From Rosistilla oblonga (GTDB lineage: Bacteria > Planctomycetota > Planctomycetia > Pirellulales > Pirellulaceae), in the NCBI RefSeq assembly GCF_007751715.1, contig NZ_CP036292.1:3038001-3102000 (forward strand): a DNA stretch of 64,000 bases. The letters are read 5' to 3'. The position numbers and the translations under genes are program-made. Positions 36,550-42,288 of the stretch are shown one piece after another. Position 1 is the first letter of the stretch; each line of letters opens with the position of its first letter. The notes under the pieces are model-generated. The model was not told the origin of the DNA and searched no databases. It worked only from the letters and a program-made list of their open reading frames with translations.

Positions 36550-38092
36550 CTGTCGATTACCCACAAGTCATTGGTCTGGTCCGAAGGCTTGCCAGCAGAG
36601 GGCGAAGTCGAGCATTCGCCGCGTGCCTCGCCAGATCACTTCGGCTCCCGGCGGACCGTCGCCTTCACGGTGATTGTAGCCGCCAAGGGTCGCAAGGAGC
36701 GGGATGAATTGTGACAGCTCAGGAGCTTGCTTTGGGGGAGCCGTCTTTTCCACCACTTTCCAGACCGACTTCCATTCCGCTTCGCTGGAGACGACATCAC
36801 AGGGAAGCTCTGGACACTCGCGGCCTAAGAAGGTCACAAACATGATCCGCCATGCGATCACTTTGTAAAACATCAACGCGCGGATCAGTCGGTCTCTCGC
36901 TTCGAGTTGAATCTCTTCGACCCGGCAGCCAGTTTTGAAAACTCGAAAGAATACTTCGATTGGCCAACGAGCCACATACAAATCCACAATCCGCAGCGTC
37001 TGGGCAATCGTGTCGACCGGCAGAGAACTCAGTAACAGCCAGTCGACTTCGGTTCCGTCGCCTGGGCCATCGATCTCGCTCACCCAAACGACACTGATCT
37101 CGACCGGCGGCATCGAAGACTGCTTGTTGTGTGGCGCACGAAGGGTCATCCGCTTCGCTCGAATTTCTAACTTCGCAGTGCGTGCTTCACGGCCGGGGTG
37201 TTGTTTGTTTCCTGATCCTTTGGTTCGCTTGGGCGTTTGGGGAAGCTGGACTTCGCGGTAAGCGACCGGCTGGGCGGATGCGATTTCGGCACGCATTTTC
37301 TTATAAGCCGCAGGCCCGCCATCGGGGTCTTTCTCCGGCAACGAGCGTTTTCGCTGCGAGCGAATGACGAACTGAGCCGGTGTTTCATGCTGATCGGCTT
37401 CGACGAAAATGTCGTAGATGTCTCCTTCGCGATCGGCCAGCGAAACGATCTGAGTTTCAGGACATTTTCCGGCGATCTCGCAGGCCTTGCGGTAACCATC
37501 GAGCCATCGTTGCCCTTCGCCGGTGTGTAGGGGTTGGCCTTCTCGCTTCTTGCTGGTGCCGAGCGCTTCTTTGTCGCGATCGTAAAACTTAACACCGACC
37601 ACCCCGAGACAAAGTTTCTCCGGCGTGAAGGCGATGTGGGAATGATCGTAAAGTCCACGGCGGCCTAAGCGATCGAGATTGCGGACGCCTTCGGGCGGAT
37701 GCGCGGTGTAGTCCAGTTCGGTGGTATCTTGTGCGATGCAAACGGTGTCTTGGGCTTTGATTCGTTGGAGTGTCTTTTCAGCGTGAGCCCCGAGAATGGC
37801 TTCTGGATCGACGTTGGGGTTATCGAATAGACGGTAGGCGGCTTTGGTTTCGTCCCAGCCACTGCAAGCTTCGTTGATACTGGCCGAAGGGTTGGCCGCC
37901 AGCGAGGCGAGCAACGCTTCGGCTCGATCGTTGAGACGTTTGTCTCCAAGTTGAATATCTTGAAATTCGTATGCGATACTGGTCGGTTGCATGCTTTCAC
38001 CTTAAGATTTCATTGTGCAAAATGAAATACTACAAGCGCAAATACCGTGCCAAAACGAGCTGTTTTTGCGGCGACTTGTGGGTAATCAACAG
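36550..38092 (-). mobile_element. IS4-family (Tn5/IS50-like) insertion sequence, 1543 bp
   Basis: Terminal inverted repeats CTGTCGATTACCCACAAGTC (36550-36569) and the complement of CTGTTGATTACCCACAAGTC (38073-38092) differ by one base. No 9-bp duplication: the left flank is CGTAACCTC and the right flank CTCTTGACG. The two flanks belong to two different repeat families, so a deletion or recombination at one side is likely. Confidence 0.85.
36568..37992 (-). CDS. IS4-family transposase, Tn5-like
   Basis: 474 residues. The N-terminal Tnp DNA-binding domain reads DIQLGDKRLNDRAEALLASL and CSGWDETKAAYRLFDNPNVD, as in Tn5 transposase. The DDE core has IAQDTTELDYT (first Asp), VSLADREGDIYDIF (second Asp) and YVARWPIEVFFRVFKTGCRV (Glu in the YREK-type signature). 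The C-terminal domain ends RRMLDFALCWQAFGP. No disabling change seen. Confidence 0.93.
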   Translation of the reverse strand: MQPTSIAYEFQDIQLGDKRLNDRAEALLASLAANPSASINEACSGWDETKAAYRLFDNPNVDPEAILGAHAEKTLQRIKAQDTVCIAQDTTELDYTAHPPEGVRNLDRLGRRGLYDHSHIAFTPEKLCLGVVGVKFYDRDKEALGTSKKREGQPLHTGEGQRWLDGYRKACEIAGKCPETQIVSLADREGDIYDIFVEADQHETPAQFVIRSQRKRSLPEKDPDGGPAAYKKMRAEIASAQPVAYREVQLPQTPKRTKGSGNKQHPGREARTAKLEIRAKRMTLRAPHNKQSSMPPVEISVVWVSEIDGPGDGTEVDWLLLSSLPVDTIAQTLRIVDLYVARWPIEVFFRVFKTGCRVEEIQLEARDRLIRALMFYKVIAWRIMFVTFLGRECPELPCDVVSSEAEWKSVWKVVEKTAPPKQAPELSQFIPLLATLGGYNHREGDGPPGAEVIWRGTRRMLDFALCWQAFGPDQ

Positions 38093-38112
38093 CTCTTGAC
38101 GAGTTCCGCTAC
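38091..38112. repeat. CTTGACGAGTTCCGCTACG repeat copy beside the IS
   Basis: One copy of the 25-bp family that has invaded the sulfatase at 38886. Its first bases are cut at the IS end. It lies between the IS and the sigma-factor stop; a partial copy is at 38838-38853. Confidence 0.75.
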
Positions 38113-38714: not shown

Positions 38715-38885
38715 AAAACTTTTCGGATAGGCAGTAGATCGTTCGGAGAACGCGGGTTTATGAGTTCAGGGATCAGCAGTTGAGGCGGAAGCCGCTAAGG
38801 CTTCCGAACGGTATTCCTGGATTGAATAACGAAACTGCCGACGAGTTCCGCTACGCCAAACTCATTCTATCAGCGAAAAACGACA

Positions 38886-41800
38886 ATGAAACCAATCCTT
38901 ACGCTCCGCACATCTGCTCTTCTTCTGTTGACCGCGTTGGCAGGACTATCGGAATCCGACACCGCATCGGCGCAGCGCGATCGATCGGAACCAATGCCGA
39001 AACAAAAAAACGTTATCGTCCTGTTGGCCGATGACCTGGGCTGGGGCGACGTCGGTTTTCACGGAGGAGTCGCCGAGACGCCCAACATCGATCGGTTGGC
39101 GAGCGAAGGGCTGCAATTGGACCGCTTCTACGCCTACCCCGCCTGCAGCCCCGCTCGGGCAGCGATGCTGACCGGGCGTTTTCCGCATCGTTACGGAATT
39201 CGCGGACCGGTTCGTCCCCGCGACGAGGGGCTGCCGATGAGCGAACGGTTGTTGGTAGCGGACTTTCAGGACGCCGGTTACCAAACTGCCTTGGTTGGGA
39301 AGTGGCATTTGAGCCGCTCGACAGACGCGGCGCACAACCCAAGTCGTCGCGGCTTCGACCACTTTTACGGTTTCCTGGATGCTTCGATCGACTACTACAA
39401 ACACACAAATGGAAGAGGCCAGATCGACTGGCAGCGAAATGGTGAGACGATCGACGAAACAGGATACGCCACCGACCTGCTGACGCGCGAAGCGATCCGA
39501 ATCATCGAAACCCGCCGTAGCGGAAGTCGTCAAGACTTTCGAGTTGAGGATCGTAGCGGAAGTCGTCAAGACTTTCGTCCCAACAACCGCACTGGAAACC
39601 GTCAAGACGCTCGACAAGGAACGGAGTCGAACGAAACTCTTGACGAGTTCCGCTACGGGGGAAAGCCGTTGTGTATGGTGGTTGCCTACAACGCTCCGCA
39701 CAGTCCGTTTCAAGCTCCCAAGGAACTGATTGCCAAGTACCGCGGTCGACTCGATGAACGCAGTGCGACTTATGCCGCGATGGTCGAATCGATGGATCAA
39801 GGAATCGGGAAGATCATGGCCGCCATCGAGAGGCAGGGGATGCGCGACGATACGATCATCGTTTTTGCATCGGACAACGGAGCGGCCCGGATGGGAACCA
39901 ATGCGCCGCTGCGTGGACAGAAGCGGCAGGTTTATGAAGGCGCGATTCGCGTTCCGTGCATCATCCATGCTCCCGGCATCGTCAAGCCAGGGACCGTGTC
40001 AGATCAGATGATCGCAATCCATGATCTCCTGCCAACCTTGGCCGGCGCCGTCGGTGTACAACTCGGCAAGGGTAGCGGAAGTCGTCAAGACTTTCGACCG
40101 GAGAACCGTCGTAGCGGAAGTCGTCAAGACTTTCGGCGGACCGATGAATCCGAAACTCTTGACGAGTTCCGTTACCGCAAAGGAAACAAAAACAACGAAA
40201 CTCTTGACGAGTTCCGCTACGGTGGCGAGTACCGCGACAAGCCGCTTGATGGCGAAAACTTGTGGCCCAATCTTGTCAGCGGCAAATCCAAACCACGGCG
40301 CATCGTGATCGCCGAAGAAGACTTTGCGATCTTTCAAGACAACTGGAAACTGATTCAATCCGCCGCGGGAGTGGAGCTCTACGACATCGTCGCCGATCCC
40401 AGCGAACGGCAAAACCTTGCCCAACGCCACAGCAAAATCGTCGCTCAGTTGGTAGGCGAGCTGGCGGAATTCAAACAACAAATCGCCGCCGACCAACCCG
40501 CAACACACGTCGTCGCGGAAGTCGTCAAGACTTTCGACACACCATCGAAACTCTCCACGAGTTCCGCTACAGAAACCAGACCGGGTTCGGCGAAACTCTC
40601 CACGAGTTCCGCTAAACGGAATCCGAAACTCTTGACGAGTTCCGCTACGGATAGGAGTATCGTGGAGGGGGCTTCGCTGGCCGGTGTGCAGCTTCAAGGC
40701 GATGCCGACTTCGGGATCTTGGGAAACCGACTGACCGAATCCAACGGCAAAGGAATTCGGTTGATGTCGGCCGTCGATCTTAACGGAGACAAGCAGCTTG
40801 CCGGTGAAGCTTCGATCATCAGCGACGCCATCAAGCCGCAAGACCGCTGGTACCGCTTCGACATTCTCGGCATGGCTCAAGATGGCTTTGTCGTCGACAA
40901 GGACAATTTGTATTTGAAGGTCGAGTTTTTCCAGAAGGGCCGCGCCGGTTCACTCGACTTCATCAAGACGCGAATTTATCCGCAGGTCGTCCAAGAGCGA
41001 AAAGATTTTAAGGACGAGGGGACTAATGCGAGCCTTGGGCTGGGAACGTGGCGAACCTACGCGATGGATTTCCGGACTCCCTTCGCTGAGATCGATTCGG
41101 TCAAATTGAGCGTCGGATTCACCGATGGAAACGGCAAAGGGAAGCAGGCCGAGTTCTGGGTCAACTCGGTGAACCTGAAACCGATTCCCGTACCTGCCGG
41201 GTACGAAGCCCCAGCCAACGCGGACCGACAATTCCCGCAGCCCGAACCGAATTCGCTTGTGGCACTTGGTGGTCGCTGGTACTTCGATCCGCAAGGCGGC
41301 TCGAAGCGGCTTCCCAAGCAATTCGATTACACCAATGCCGATCAGTTGCTTTACAGATCGGATCGCTTTGAGGCACCCTTTGCGGGGAACATGTCGTCGT
41401 GGCTGCGAGCTGGCTACAAAGATTTTGAAGGCAACATCGTCAAAAAGGATGAGCACAAGCCGTACGCCGTTGTCATCTCGGTGACGAAAGATCACATTGT
41501 GATGCGAAGTCGCAATCTGCCTAATCACCCGACCGCTACTTTCCCCGACAAGTGGCGGATGCTGGACGGGAATCCCTCTTACATCCAAGAGAAGGCGAAC
41601 ACTTGGTACTTGCCCAAGGAACCGAAGCTGGCGGCCGATCCGATCGCGATGGACGAAAAGAACGCCAACGGTGCTCTGCCCATGGGCCCCATCGGCGTCG
41701 CCACGAATGGAGTGATCTTCTTCAATCCGTTTGATCACATCTTCGAGACCGATGCGGTTTGGCGATTGGATCGTTGCTGTGGCCACCCGAGTCCGCAGAG

Positions 41801-42098
41801 CGCGTATCACTATCACAAATACCCTGTGTGCGTGAAGACGCCGTGGAGCGACGAAGGCAAGATGCACTCATCGGTGATCGGATTCGCGTTCGACGGCTTG
41901 CCAGTCTACGGACCTTATGAAGCCGACGGTTTATTGGCCAAGGATGACCTACAAAACCCACTCAACGATTTCAACTTGCACGACGACGCAGTCCGCGGAC
42001 CGCACTATCACGTGACGCCGGGCAAGTTCCCACACATCATCGGCGGTTATTGGGGCGAGCTCGACCCGATGAACGGCCGAGGCCGCCGAGCGAGGTAA
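38886..42098 (+). CDS. Sulfatase-YHYH fusion, invaded in frame by 12 copies of a short repeat
   Basis: 1070 residues, about twice a normal sulfatase. A signal peptide is followed by VIVLLADDLGWGDVG, the formylglycine motif YPACSPARAAMLTG (Cys near residue 88) and VGKWHLS. Later blocks are VVAYNAPHSPFQAP and IVFASDNGAARMG. Residues about 211-258, 396-446 and 543-589 are translated repeats: RSGSRQDFR, ETLDEFRYG, VAEVVKTFD and KLSTSSAT, the same 25-bp DNA read in different frames and strands. Between 600 and 780 lies an uncharacterised beta-rich region. The C-terminus is a YHYH domain (SAYHYHKYPVC, GFAFDGLPVYGPYE, GPHYHVTPGKFPHIIGGYWG). The inserts fall in loops next to conserved strands, so the enzyme may still fold. 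Secreted; substrate unknown. Confidence 0.9.
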   Translation: MKPILTLRTSALLLLTALAGLSESDTASAQRDRSEPMPKQKNVIVLLADDLGWGDVGFHGGVAETPNIDRLASEGLQLDRFYAYPACSPARAAMLTGRFPHRYGIRGPVRPRDEGLPMSERLLVADFQDAGYQTALVGKWHLSRSTDAAHNPSRRGFDHFYGFLDASIDYYKHTNGRGQIDWQRNGETIDETGYATDLLTREAIRIIETRRSGSRQDFRVEDRSGSRQDFRPNNRTGNRQDARQGTESNETLDEFRYGGKPLCMVVAYNAPHSPFQAPKELIAKYRGRLDERSATYAAMVESMDQGIGKIMAAIERQGMRDDTIIVFASDNGAARMGTNAPLRGQKRQVYEGAIRVPCIIHAPGIVKPGTVSDQMIAIHDLLPTLAGAVGVQLGKGSGSRQDFRPENRRSGSRQDFRRTDESETLDEFRYRKGNKNNETLDEFRYGGEYRDKPLDGENLWPNLVSGKSKPRRIVIAEEDFAIFQDNWKLIQSAAGVELYDIVADPSERQNLAQRHSKIVAQLVGELAEFKQQIAADQPATHVVAEVVKTFDTPSKLSTSSATETRPGSAKLSTSSAKRNPKLLTSSATDRSIVEGASLAGVQLQGDADFGILGNRLTESNGKGIRLMSAVDLNGDKQLAGEASIISDAIKPQDRWYRFDILGMAQDGFVVDKDNLYLKVEFFQKGRAGSLDFIKTRIYPQVVQERKDFKDEGTNASLGLGTWRTYAMDFRTPFAEIDSVKLSVGFTDGNGKGKQAEFWVNSVNLKPIPVPAGYEAPANADRQFPQPEPNSLVALGGRWYFDPQGGSKRLPKQFDYTNADQLLYRSDRFEAPFAGNMSSWLRAGYKDFEGNIVKKDEHKPYAVVISVTKDHIVMRSRNLPNHPTATFPDKWRMLDGNPSYIQEKANTWYLPKEPKLAADPIAMDEKNANGALPMGPIGVATNGVIFFNPFDHIFETDAVWRLDRCCGHPSPQSAYHYHKYPVCVKTPWSDEGKMHSSVIGFAFDGLPVYGPYEADGLLAKDDLQNPLNDFNLHDDAVRGPHYHVTPGKFPHIIGGYWGELDPMNGRGRRAR
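39517..39657. repeat. Intragenic repeat cluster 1 (4 copies)
   Basis: Forward copies (GTAGCGGAAGTCGTCAAGAC + TTTCG) at 39517-39541 and 39553-39577, a decayed one at 39591-39613, and a reverse copy at 39632-39657. All stay in the sulfatase frame. The cluster adds about 48 residues between a helix end (AIRIIET) and the strand KPLCMVVAYN. Confidence 0.9.
40072..40221. repeat. Intragenic repeat cluster 2 (4 copies)
   Basis: Forward copies at 40072-40096 and 40111-40135, reverse copies at 40151-40175 and 40196-40221. Inserted between LLPTLAGAVGVQL and DKPLDGENLWPNL, a surface loop in sulfatases. Confidence 0.9.
40512..40650. repeat. Intragenic repeat cluster 3 (4 copies)
   Basis: A forward copy at 40512-40536 and reverse copies at 40546-40570, 40591-40614 and 40624-40650. 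Here the forward copy is read in another frame than in clusters 1 and 2 (VAEVVKTFD, not SGSRQDFR). It sits in the linker after the sulfatase domain. Confidence 0.9.
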
Positions 42099-42108
42099 CC
42101 CCACAACC

Positions 42109-42288
42109 GTAGCGGAAGTCGTCAAGACTTTCGTGACCATCGCTAAACCGTAGAGGAAGCCGTCAAGAGATTCGTCATCAACGCGCAGCCGTAGCGGAAG
42201 TCGTCAAGACTTTCGTAACCATCGCTAAACCGGAATGGAAGCCGTCAAGAGATTCGTCGCGTTCGAAAGTCTTGACGACTTCCGCTAC
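42109..42288. repeat. Non-coding array of the same 25-bp repeat (5 copies)
   Basis: Forward copies at 42109-42133, 42150-42174 (variant), 42191-42215 and 42232-42256 (variant), and a reverse copy at 42263-42288. Spacing of the forward copies is about 41 bp. The array begins 11 bases after the sulfatase stop. The rest up to 42570 has no gene. Confidence 0.9.

Follow-up and report, generated by a model that had tools for sequence, protein, structure and literature searches.

Repeat clusters in a sulfatase gene of Rosistilla oblonga

The window, a stretch of 64,000 nucleotides from the planctomycete Rosistilla oblonga, contains a gene for a sulfatase with a C-terminal YHYH domain, in which copies of a 25-bp palindromic unit, termed here REP-A (REP, repetitive extragenic palindromic sequence), are found at three places. 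The gene had been proposed, in an earlier reading made from the sequence alone, to form one uninterrupted frame of 1070 codons, and this open reading frame (ORF) was confirmed. Its product matches the Pfam domains Sulfatase (PF00884, residues 41-391) and YHYH (PF14240, residues 907-1065). C87, P89 and R91 are invariant in 14 aligned sulfatase sequences, and the protein carries the CSPAR motif.

To locate the copies, the window was searched with the pattern GTAGCGGAASTCGTCAAGASTTTCG, allowing up to 3 mismatches, and 100 shuffles served as the control. The search gave 16 matches vs. none in the shuffles, of which 11 were in the ORF, one upstream and four downstream (Table 1). The intragenic copies form three clusters (39517-39657, 40072-40221 and 40512-40650, hereafter sites 1 to 3), exactly as the sequence-only reading had described them. 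Its total of twelve intragenic copies stands for eleven, at up to 3 mismatches, but the twelfth, in the first cluster, is only a degenerate unit. The peptides that it had listed were found as well, RSGSRQDFR and ETLDEFRYG at sites 1 and 2, and VAEVVKTFD and KLLTSSATD at site 3. Downstream of the gene, the variant unit GTAGAGGAAGCCGTCAAGAGATTCG alternates with normal REP-A units (42150-42256). Throughout, genomes are given G numbers (G000, the genome of the window; G001 and G002, its congeners in genus g1; the remaining numbers, other relatives), and loci taken from genomes are given L numbers, with the coordinates after the colon counting within the locus.

Table 1. Host gene and REP-A units in and around it, with positions in the window
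Feature	Position	Strand	Mismatches
Truncated REP-A, 20 nt, right edge of IS4-type element	38093..38112	-	
Degenerate REP-A upstream of sulfatase gene	38830..38854	-	3
Host gene (sulfatase, YHYH domain at the C-terminus; 1070 aa, without internal stops)	38886..42098	+	
REP-A, G sub-type, site 1	39517..39541	+	0
REP-A, G sub-type, site 1	39553..39577	+	0
Degenerate REP-A, site 1 (18/25 by hand count; peptide RTGNRQDAR; also in G002)	39589..39613	+	
REP-A, C sub-type, site 1	39632..39656	-	0
REP-A, G sub-type, site 2	40072..40096	+	0
REP-A, G sub-type, site 2	40111..40135	+	0
REP-A, C sub-type, site 2	40151..40175	-	1
REP-A, C sub-type, site 2	40196..40220	-	0
REP-A, G sub-type, site 3	40512..40536	+	1
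REP-A, C sub-type, site 3	40546..40570	-	2
REP-A, C sub-type, site 3	40591..40615	-	3
REP-A, C sub-type, site 3	40624..40648	-	0
Downstream array	42109..42288		
REP-A in downstream array	from 42109	+	
Variant GTAGAGGAAGCCGTCAAGAGATTCG in downstream array	from 42150		
REP-A in downstream array	from 42191	+	
Variant GTAGAGGAAGCCGTCAAGAGATTCG in downstream array	from 42232		3
REP-A in downstream array	from 42264	-	

Anatomy and coding potential of the REP-A unit

REP-A starts with the tag GTAG, followed by CGGAAGTC-GTCAA-GACTTTCG, an imperfect 8-bp hairpin with one G-T pair. In a second sub-type one stem pair is exchanged, from G-C (G sub-type) to C-G (C sub-type). For a closer view of the unit we used 202 copies with up to 5 mismatches from a set list of loci: the tag was GTAG in 181 of these, and the 8 stem positions were paired (G-T allowed) in 188 to 199. 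The exchanged pair (10/20) was G-C in 103 copies, C-G in 93, G-G in 3, C-C in 1 and of other composition in two, the pattern for genome-wide searches having let either side of it be G or C independently. These counts show that the stem is preserved via compensatory change. When neighbouring copies less than 120 bp apart were compared, 85 of 118 pairs were opposite in both orientation and sub-type and 7 were inverted with the same sub-type. Paired copies fold in silico (DNA parameters) as long hairpins, and that of a model pair was predicted to be 7.8 kcal/mol weaker with heterotypic pairing.

Stops occur in two of the six frames for both sub-types, leaving four open; in-frame reading would therefore need survivorship, not a special coding design. 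This agrees with the earlier description of a dispersed palindromic element readable in several frames and both orientations, as does the number of genomic copies given below.

Insertion sites among sulfatase orthologues

At E up to 1e-100, the sulfatase was found in 19 of 199 genomes of the family, G000 included, which gave 18 other orthologues for comparison; the third congener, G001, has no sulfatase at this threshold. The sequence-only reading had taken the three segments for inserts between conserved sulfatase blocks, and this was borne out. The R. sallentina orthologue, 64% identical, is without all three. Site 1 is empty in 16 of the 18, being occupied in G002 and, by a unit with 4 mismatches, in G046, and site 2 is empty in 17, G002 being the only one with it occupied. 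G002 carries a REP pair at each of the same three sites, together with the shared degenerate copy at site 1, and also has a degenerate REP-A directly upstream of the gene (L091:10008-10032). Its segments are shorter than those of G000 by 36, 102 and 78 nt, all whole codons. Our comparison of empty and occupied sites indicates that the three sulfatase segments are insertions.

Site 3 gave a richer picture: REP-A, decayed REP-A or an unrelated unit, REP-B, was present there in 8 of the 18 other orthologues, and two further ones show weak traces. REP-A is clear in G002 and G046. In G185, G056 and G132 a decayed REP-A pair was found, each unit having 5 to 7 mismatches, and these pairs were equalled by none of 500 codon shuffles and by none of 158 to 160 other gene segments. 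REP-B occupies the site in G122, G194 and G199. The weak traces are those of G230 (8 mismatches, shuffle fraction 0.010) and G203 (9 mismatches, 0.044), both being per-sequence fractions. No convincing REP was seen at site 3 in G231, G159, G242, G014, G128, G243, G136 and G150, G136 being borderline (10 mismatches, per-sequence shuffle fraction 0.072). Site 3 was also considered as a single old insertion common to all lineages; on the sulfatase tree, built with all columns filled in 30% of rows and inserts kept in, the decayed site-3 label needs 3 changes. The diverged REP-A pairs in three orthologues speak for older or repeated insertion at this site. The sequence-only reading had held that orthologues with diverged DNA at the same segments would count against insertion; such orthologues exist in part, namely these three and at site 3, but they do not argue against insertion.

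Distribution of REP-A within and across genomes

The genome of the window (7.25 Mb, one contig) contains 49 REP-A copies with up to 2 mismatches vs. 0 for the reversed-pattern control. Ten are inside the sulfatase gene and 3 just downstream of it. In the 14 other regions of G000, copies are found outside ORFs or in ORFs of up to 318 aa, of which five are without a Pfam match. Across genomes, REP-A with up to 1 mismatch was detected in 14 of 117, G000 included, that is in 14 of 72 from the same family and 0 of 45 from other families of the order, with 282 copies in G014, 35 in G002 and 20 in G038.

Outside the sulfatase-kinase cluster, the units are nearly always found outside long ORFs. No copy lies within any ORF longer than 200 aa in 17 regions of G014, and in nine regions of G199 a 160-aa ORF contains two copies, while one degenerate unit was found where an ORF begins. 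Counter to this extragenic trend, copies are present in five ORFs from G001 and G002 (198 to 340 aa), none of which has a Pfam match.

A candidate transposase partner

A gene resembling those of REP-associated tyrosine transposases (RAYTs) was found around a weak Y1 match in G014 (L147:2338-2937, 199 aa). It has 18 REP-A copies upstream and 6 downstream, mostly alternating in orientation, and its stop codon falls in the GTAG of the next unit. H72, H74 and Y133 are invariant across 9 RAYT-like sequences, and we take H72/H74 to be the HUH motif and Y133 the catalytic Tyr motif. A search with the G014 protein gave matches at E up to 1e-5 in 10 of 19 genomes. Homologues in G036, G132 and G159 (64-70% identity) have REP-A on both sides, with 3-4 mismatches in G159, which makes four relatives with a cognate RAYT-like gene flanked by REP-A. 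Y1 matches occur in 7 of 8 relatives, and 30 listed loci were without REP-A at up to 5 mismatches. Among 20 regions around weaker Y1 matches, REP-A (up to 6 mismatches) was present only at L147 (24 copies) and L155 (one, with 4 mismatches).

With its GTAG tag, paired stem, dispersed copies, inverted pairs, mostly extragenic location and RAYT flanked by it in relatives, REP-A is a GTAG REP/REPIN (REPIN, REP doublet forming a hairpin). It represents a new family of a known kind, the GTAG REPs and REPINs that are mobilised by RAYTs.

Selection on the host gene and its predicted structure

In the comparison of G000 with the G002 orthologue, the sulfatase core (915 core codons) gave dN 0.037 and dS 0.339 (nonsynonymous and synonymous divergence), with dN/dS about 0.11, which shows that purifying selection acts on the host gene.

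The structure of the sulfatase was predicted from 14 sequences, with a mean predicted local distance difference test score (pLDDT) of 55. Block means of 74-97 were obtained across most of residues 41-210, 261-390 and 451-530, with dips within the sulfatase domain at 101-120 and 171-180. Residues 214-256 and 396-447 have pLDDT below 50 and are predicted without regular structure, and such low-confidence segments are consistent with inserts between conserved blocks. In the model, site 1 is preceded by helix 195-209 and followed by strand 262-268, site 2 separates helix 378-388 from helix 460-465, and site 3 is C-terminal of helix 516-536. The alignment with 6bia, the best solved relative, falls into three parts, the breaks coinciding with sites 1 and 2.

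Origin of the intragenic repeats

The explanation that we consider very probable is that REP-A, a GTAG REP, inserted at three places of the sulfatase gene, that the surviving insertions kept the frame and an open reading, and that the copy number changed afterwards. REP-A would be a non-autonomous hairpin moved as single-stranded DNA by a RAYT, a Y1 HUH transposase. REPs, probably as pairs, would have entered the gene at three places before G000 and G002 split, and survivors would be those insertions whose length kept the frame and which are read in one of the four open frames. The copy number would then have shifted in whole-codon steps. The sulfatase would still work because two of the inserts fall into presumed loops of its sulfatase domain and the third into the linker that follows this domain.

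Several of our results weigh against this explanation. The G014 protein scores below the cut-off both with NCBIfam NF047646, REP-associated tyrosine transposase (40.2 bits, cut-off 80), and with PF01797 (19.5 bits, cut-off 23), which suggests that it belongs to a divergent, RAYT-like group. Searches with two queries, at E up to 1e-5, detected no RAYT homologue in either G000 or G002, and the 6 Y1 matches of G000 all lack flanking REP-A at up to 7 mismatches; since a cognate RAYT is missing there, the REP-A copies of both genomes are probably orphans now, and the RAYT may have been lost from their lineage. Two other REP-A carriers fit no better: G038 has only a 58% RAYT homologue, flanked by another hairpin, and G056 has no RAYT homologue at E up to 1e-5. 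As for the protein, the insert codons shared by G000 and G002, 83 in number, appear too few for judging constraint on the insert peptide. In the predicted model, nearly all residues from 539 on have pLDDT below 50 and a low-confidence helix (541-550) lies inside site 3, so that this site does not stand out in the model; the weak modelling of the C-terminal part is probably due to few sequences covering it.

It could be argued that the segments are low-complexity linkers at the protein level, whose repeats are the product of tandem duplication with selection acting on the peptide, without any mobility of the DNA. The whole-codon length differences between G000 and G002 do suggest duplication or deletion in place, and the REP-B units in the G122 sulfatase form a five-fold tandem of 57 bp. 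However, one DNA unit yields several unrelated peptides in two orientations, it flanks RAYT genes in relatives, and its dispersal in the genome as identical copies, mostly outside long ORFs, speaks against tandem duplication as the origin. Duplication can account for part of the data, for the change in copy number but not for the first arrival, and as a full explanation we regard it as highly improbable. A decaying pseudogene or an assembly artefact, with the frame kept by chance, is less credible still, given the single uninterrupted frame with its CSPAR motif, the low dN/dS of the sulfatase and the same three sites being filled in the genome of a congener.

We consider it improbable, though less so, that the intragenic REPs are regulatory RNA or DNA elements kept by selection, with coding as a by-product. 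The long hairpins formed in silico by paired copies would suit such a role, and dS is lower in the insert columns common to G000 and G002 (0.090, with dN 0.043) than in the core, as if the DNA were constrained or homogenised. Yet hardly any orthologue has site 1 or site 2 filled, and dS is also low (0.038) at residues 253-292, directly beside an insert; the dip is thus not confined to REPs, and we dropped any special meaning of low dS at the inserts.

Relation to known repeat systems

GTAG REPs, REPINs and bacterial interspersed mosaic elements with their RAYTs, as described in passages of PMC3733652, PMC2817692, PMC3116915 and PMC6006769, resemble REP-A in the tag, the imperfect hairpin, which has a G-T pair and whose stem variants are complementary, the inverted heterotypic pairs, the clusters, the RAYT flanked by the unit and the mostly intergenic location. 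Unlike in those descriptions, three sites of one gene are filled here, and two unrelated families occur in the same gene pair. The REP-A sequence itself was not met in the text passages of these four papers, figures and supplements lying outside this comparison. Because a preference of REPs for heterodimers is already described in the text of PMC3733652, the heterotypic pairing of REP-A is not claimed as new.

Rickettsia palindromic elements (RPEs) are palindromic elements inserted in frame inside genes. They resemble REP-A in this palindromic, in-frame intragenic insertion, and the sequence-only reading had held a planctomycete counterpart of them to be new. This did not hold: according to passages of PMC3733652, GTAG REPs were already reported in Planctomycetes, R. 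baltica being named as a genome that has several of their families, and REPs lying in frame within genes are described for a number of species, including RPE-4 and RPE-6 of R. conorii. The phenomenon itself is therefore not new. Intragenic GTAG and CGTC REPs are described there for Opitutus terrae, Thauera, Rickettsia conorii and others, with dimers or groups coding for 20-30 aa, clusters for 43-82 aa, and some ORFs hit twice. Like the sulfatase gene, these ORFs carry groups of REPs inside protein-coding sequence; unlike them, it has three clusters in one ORF, whose sites are compared here with empty, decayed and differently invaded orthologues. RPE-1 is described in the same text as longer, and RPE-4 and RPE-6 as CGTC-type repeats, so that REP-A is set apart from the latter by its GTAG tag and by the RAYT partner in relatives.

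What appears to be new is the recurrence, the same linker and the same gene pair being used by two REP families. Such repeated use is undescribed in the literature compared, figures, supplements and most subscription journals being outside it. The locus offers a natural experiment on mobile hairpins turning into protein sequence, with one linker empty, occupied, decayed or otherwise invaded across genera. Whether such linkers are tolerated or useful, a question for intragenic REPs in general, becomes testable on a single enzyme that can be expressed, and for biochemistry there are now matched pairs of RAYT and REP from Planctomycetes.

REP-B and the kinase-sulfatase neighbourhood

REP-B (GTAGCTACGCTCGCCAGAGCGTGG) also consists of GTAG and an 8-bp hairpin and is unrelated in sequence to REP-A. 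At up to 2 mismatches it was present in 7 of 11 genomes searched, with 121 copies in G014, 89 in G122, 47 in G199, 18 in G194, 4 in G046, 2 in G150 and 1 in G185, and absent from G000 and G002. Its presumed transposase, RAYT-B, is flanked by REP-B in both G122 and G199, the two proteins being 73% identical.

In most relatives examined, genes for a kinase, an EF-hand protein and an extracytoplasmic function (ECF) sigma factor stand in this order, with the sulfatase next on the opposite strand. Kinase matches were obtained in 18 of 20 genomes searched, and the kinases of 13 genomes were aligned. The G002 kinase gene has five in-frame REP-A units at two sites, the first of which is empty in the 12 other kinases, while some additional residues are seen at the second in G185 and G046. 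G122 (13 units) and G199 (2 units) have in-frame REP-B within the kinase domain, at a single place that is empty in the 11 others. This parallel invasion of the kinase gene had been overlooked in the sequence-only reading, as had the GTAG tag, the transposase and site 3 as a recurrent landing place. In G122, where two contigs share the cluster, the gene for RAYT-B separates those for the kinase and the EF-hand protein and is bordered by REP-B arrays on either side; the corresponding interval in G002 has five REP-A units and no RAYT.

We tentatively suggest, as a hypothesis that we hold to be possible but doubtful, that the kinase/EF-hand/ECF sigma/sulfatase-YHYH cluster is a recurrent nursery of RAYT-REP systems. 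A REPtron would settle in the gap between the genes for the kinase and the EF-hand protein, an arrangement found in G122, and from there spread its own REP family locally to the two protein genes nearby, in which a few linkers would serve as landing places. After a later loss of the RAYT, the peptides encoded by REPs would persist and, over times on the scale of genera, diverge like any other linker sequence. On this view, G000 and G002 would stand at the stage after RAYT loss, and G185, G056 and G132 at the decayed stage. The basis for this is three genomes with an invaded kinase gene, one of them with the RAYT in place.

The G122 genes show further features of their own. The REP-B array in the kinase (L232) adds about 120 residues within the kinase domain, and in the site-3 linker of the sulfatase (L138 / L236) the five-fold in-frame tandem encodes the 19-residue repeat peptide PPSGDGSYAGQSVGRTQPA. 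Five further REP-B units near the assigned start of this ORF may be upstream of the true start.

Other repeats and mobile elements

For 17 RAYT loci, hairpins were scanned within 400 bases. GTAG hairpins of the GTAGTGGA type were found at L188 (G122), L194 (G014), L189 (G038) and L248 (G128), and REP-B at L245 (G199) and at L232 (G122), whose gene is also that of L195; the hairpin at L255 (G230) differs from REP-A by one mismatch. The scan was empty at L190, L191, L198, L249 and L252, yet GTAG repeats are readable beside L190 and L191. Within this sample, different RAYT groups appear to pair with different GTAG hairpins.

The six Y1 genes of G000 were considered as partner transposase and rejected, their flanks being without REP-A and carrying, by eye, hairpin arrays of other sequence. 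Five IS200-type transposase genes (IS, insertion sequence) at L031-L035 have hairpin repeats on both sides, of five different sequences by eye, as though G000 had several more small repeat families side by side. A tandem repeat of the CAACACCCATCAT type stands at about 2090-2230 of L034, beside one IS200-like gene. A divergent Y1 protein (L036:1501-1713; weak match, E 0.004) with the stretch YIQYNPQKAGL is flanked by CTTTCGCTCCGCGAAAG hairpins, which is possibly another RAYT-REP pair.

In G000 the search for the kinase was negative at E up to 1e-100, and in G002 the sigma gene has the EF-hand and kinase genes as neighbours; an IS- or REP-mediated deletion is therefore possible. An IS4-family element occupies 36550-38092 of the window (transposase 36568-37992, ends CTGTYGATTACCCACAAGTC), with a broken copy of another GTAG-type repeat (GTGGACGAGGCTACGAGTCC) on its left and the broken REP-A on its right.

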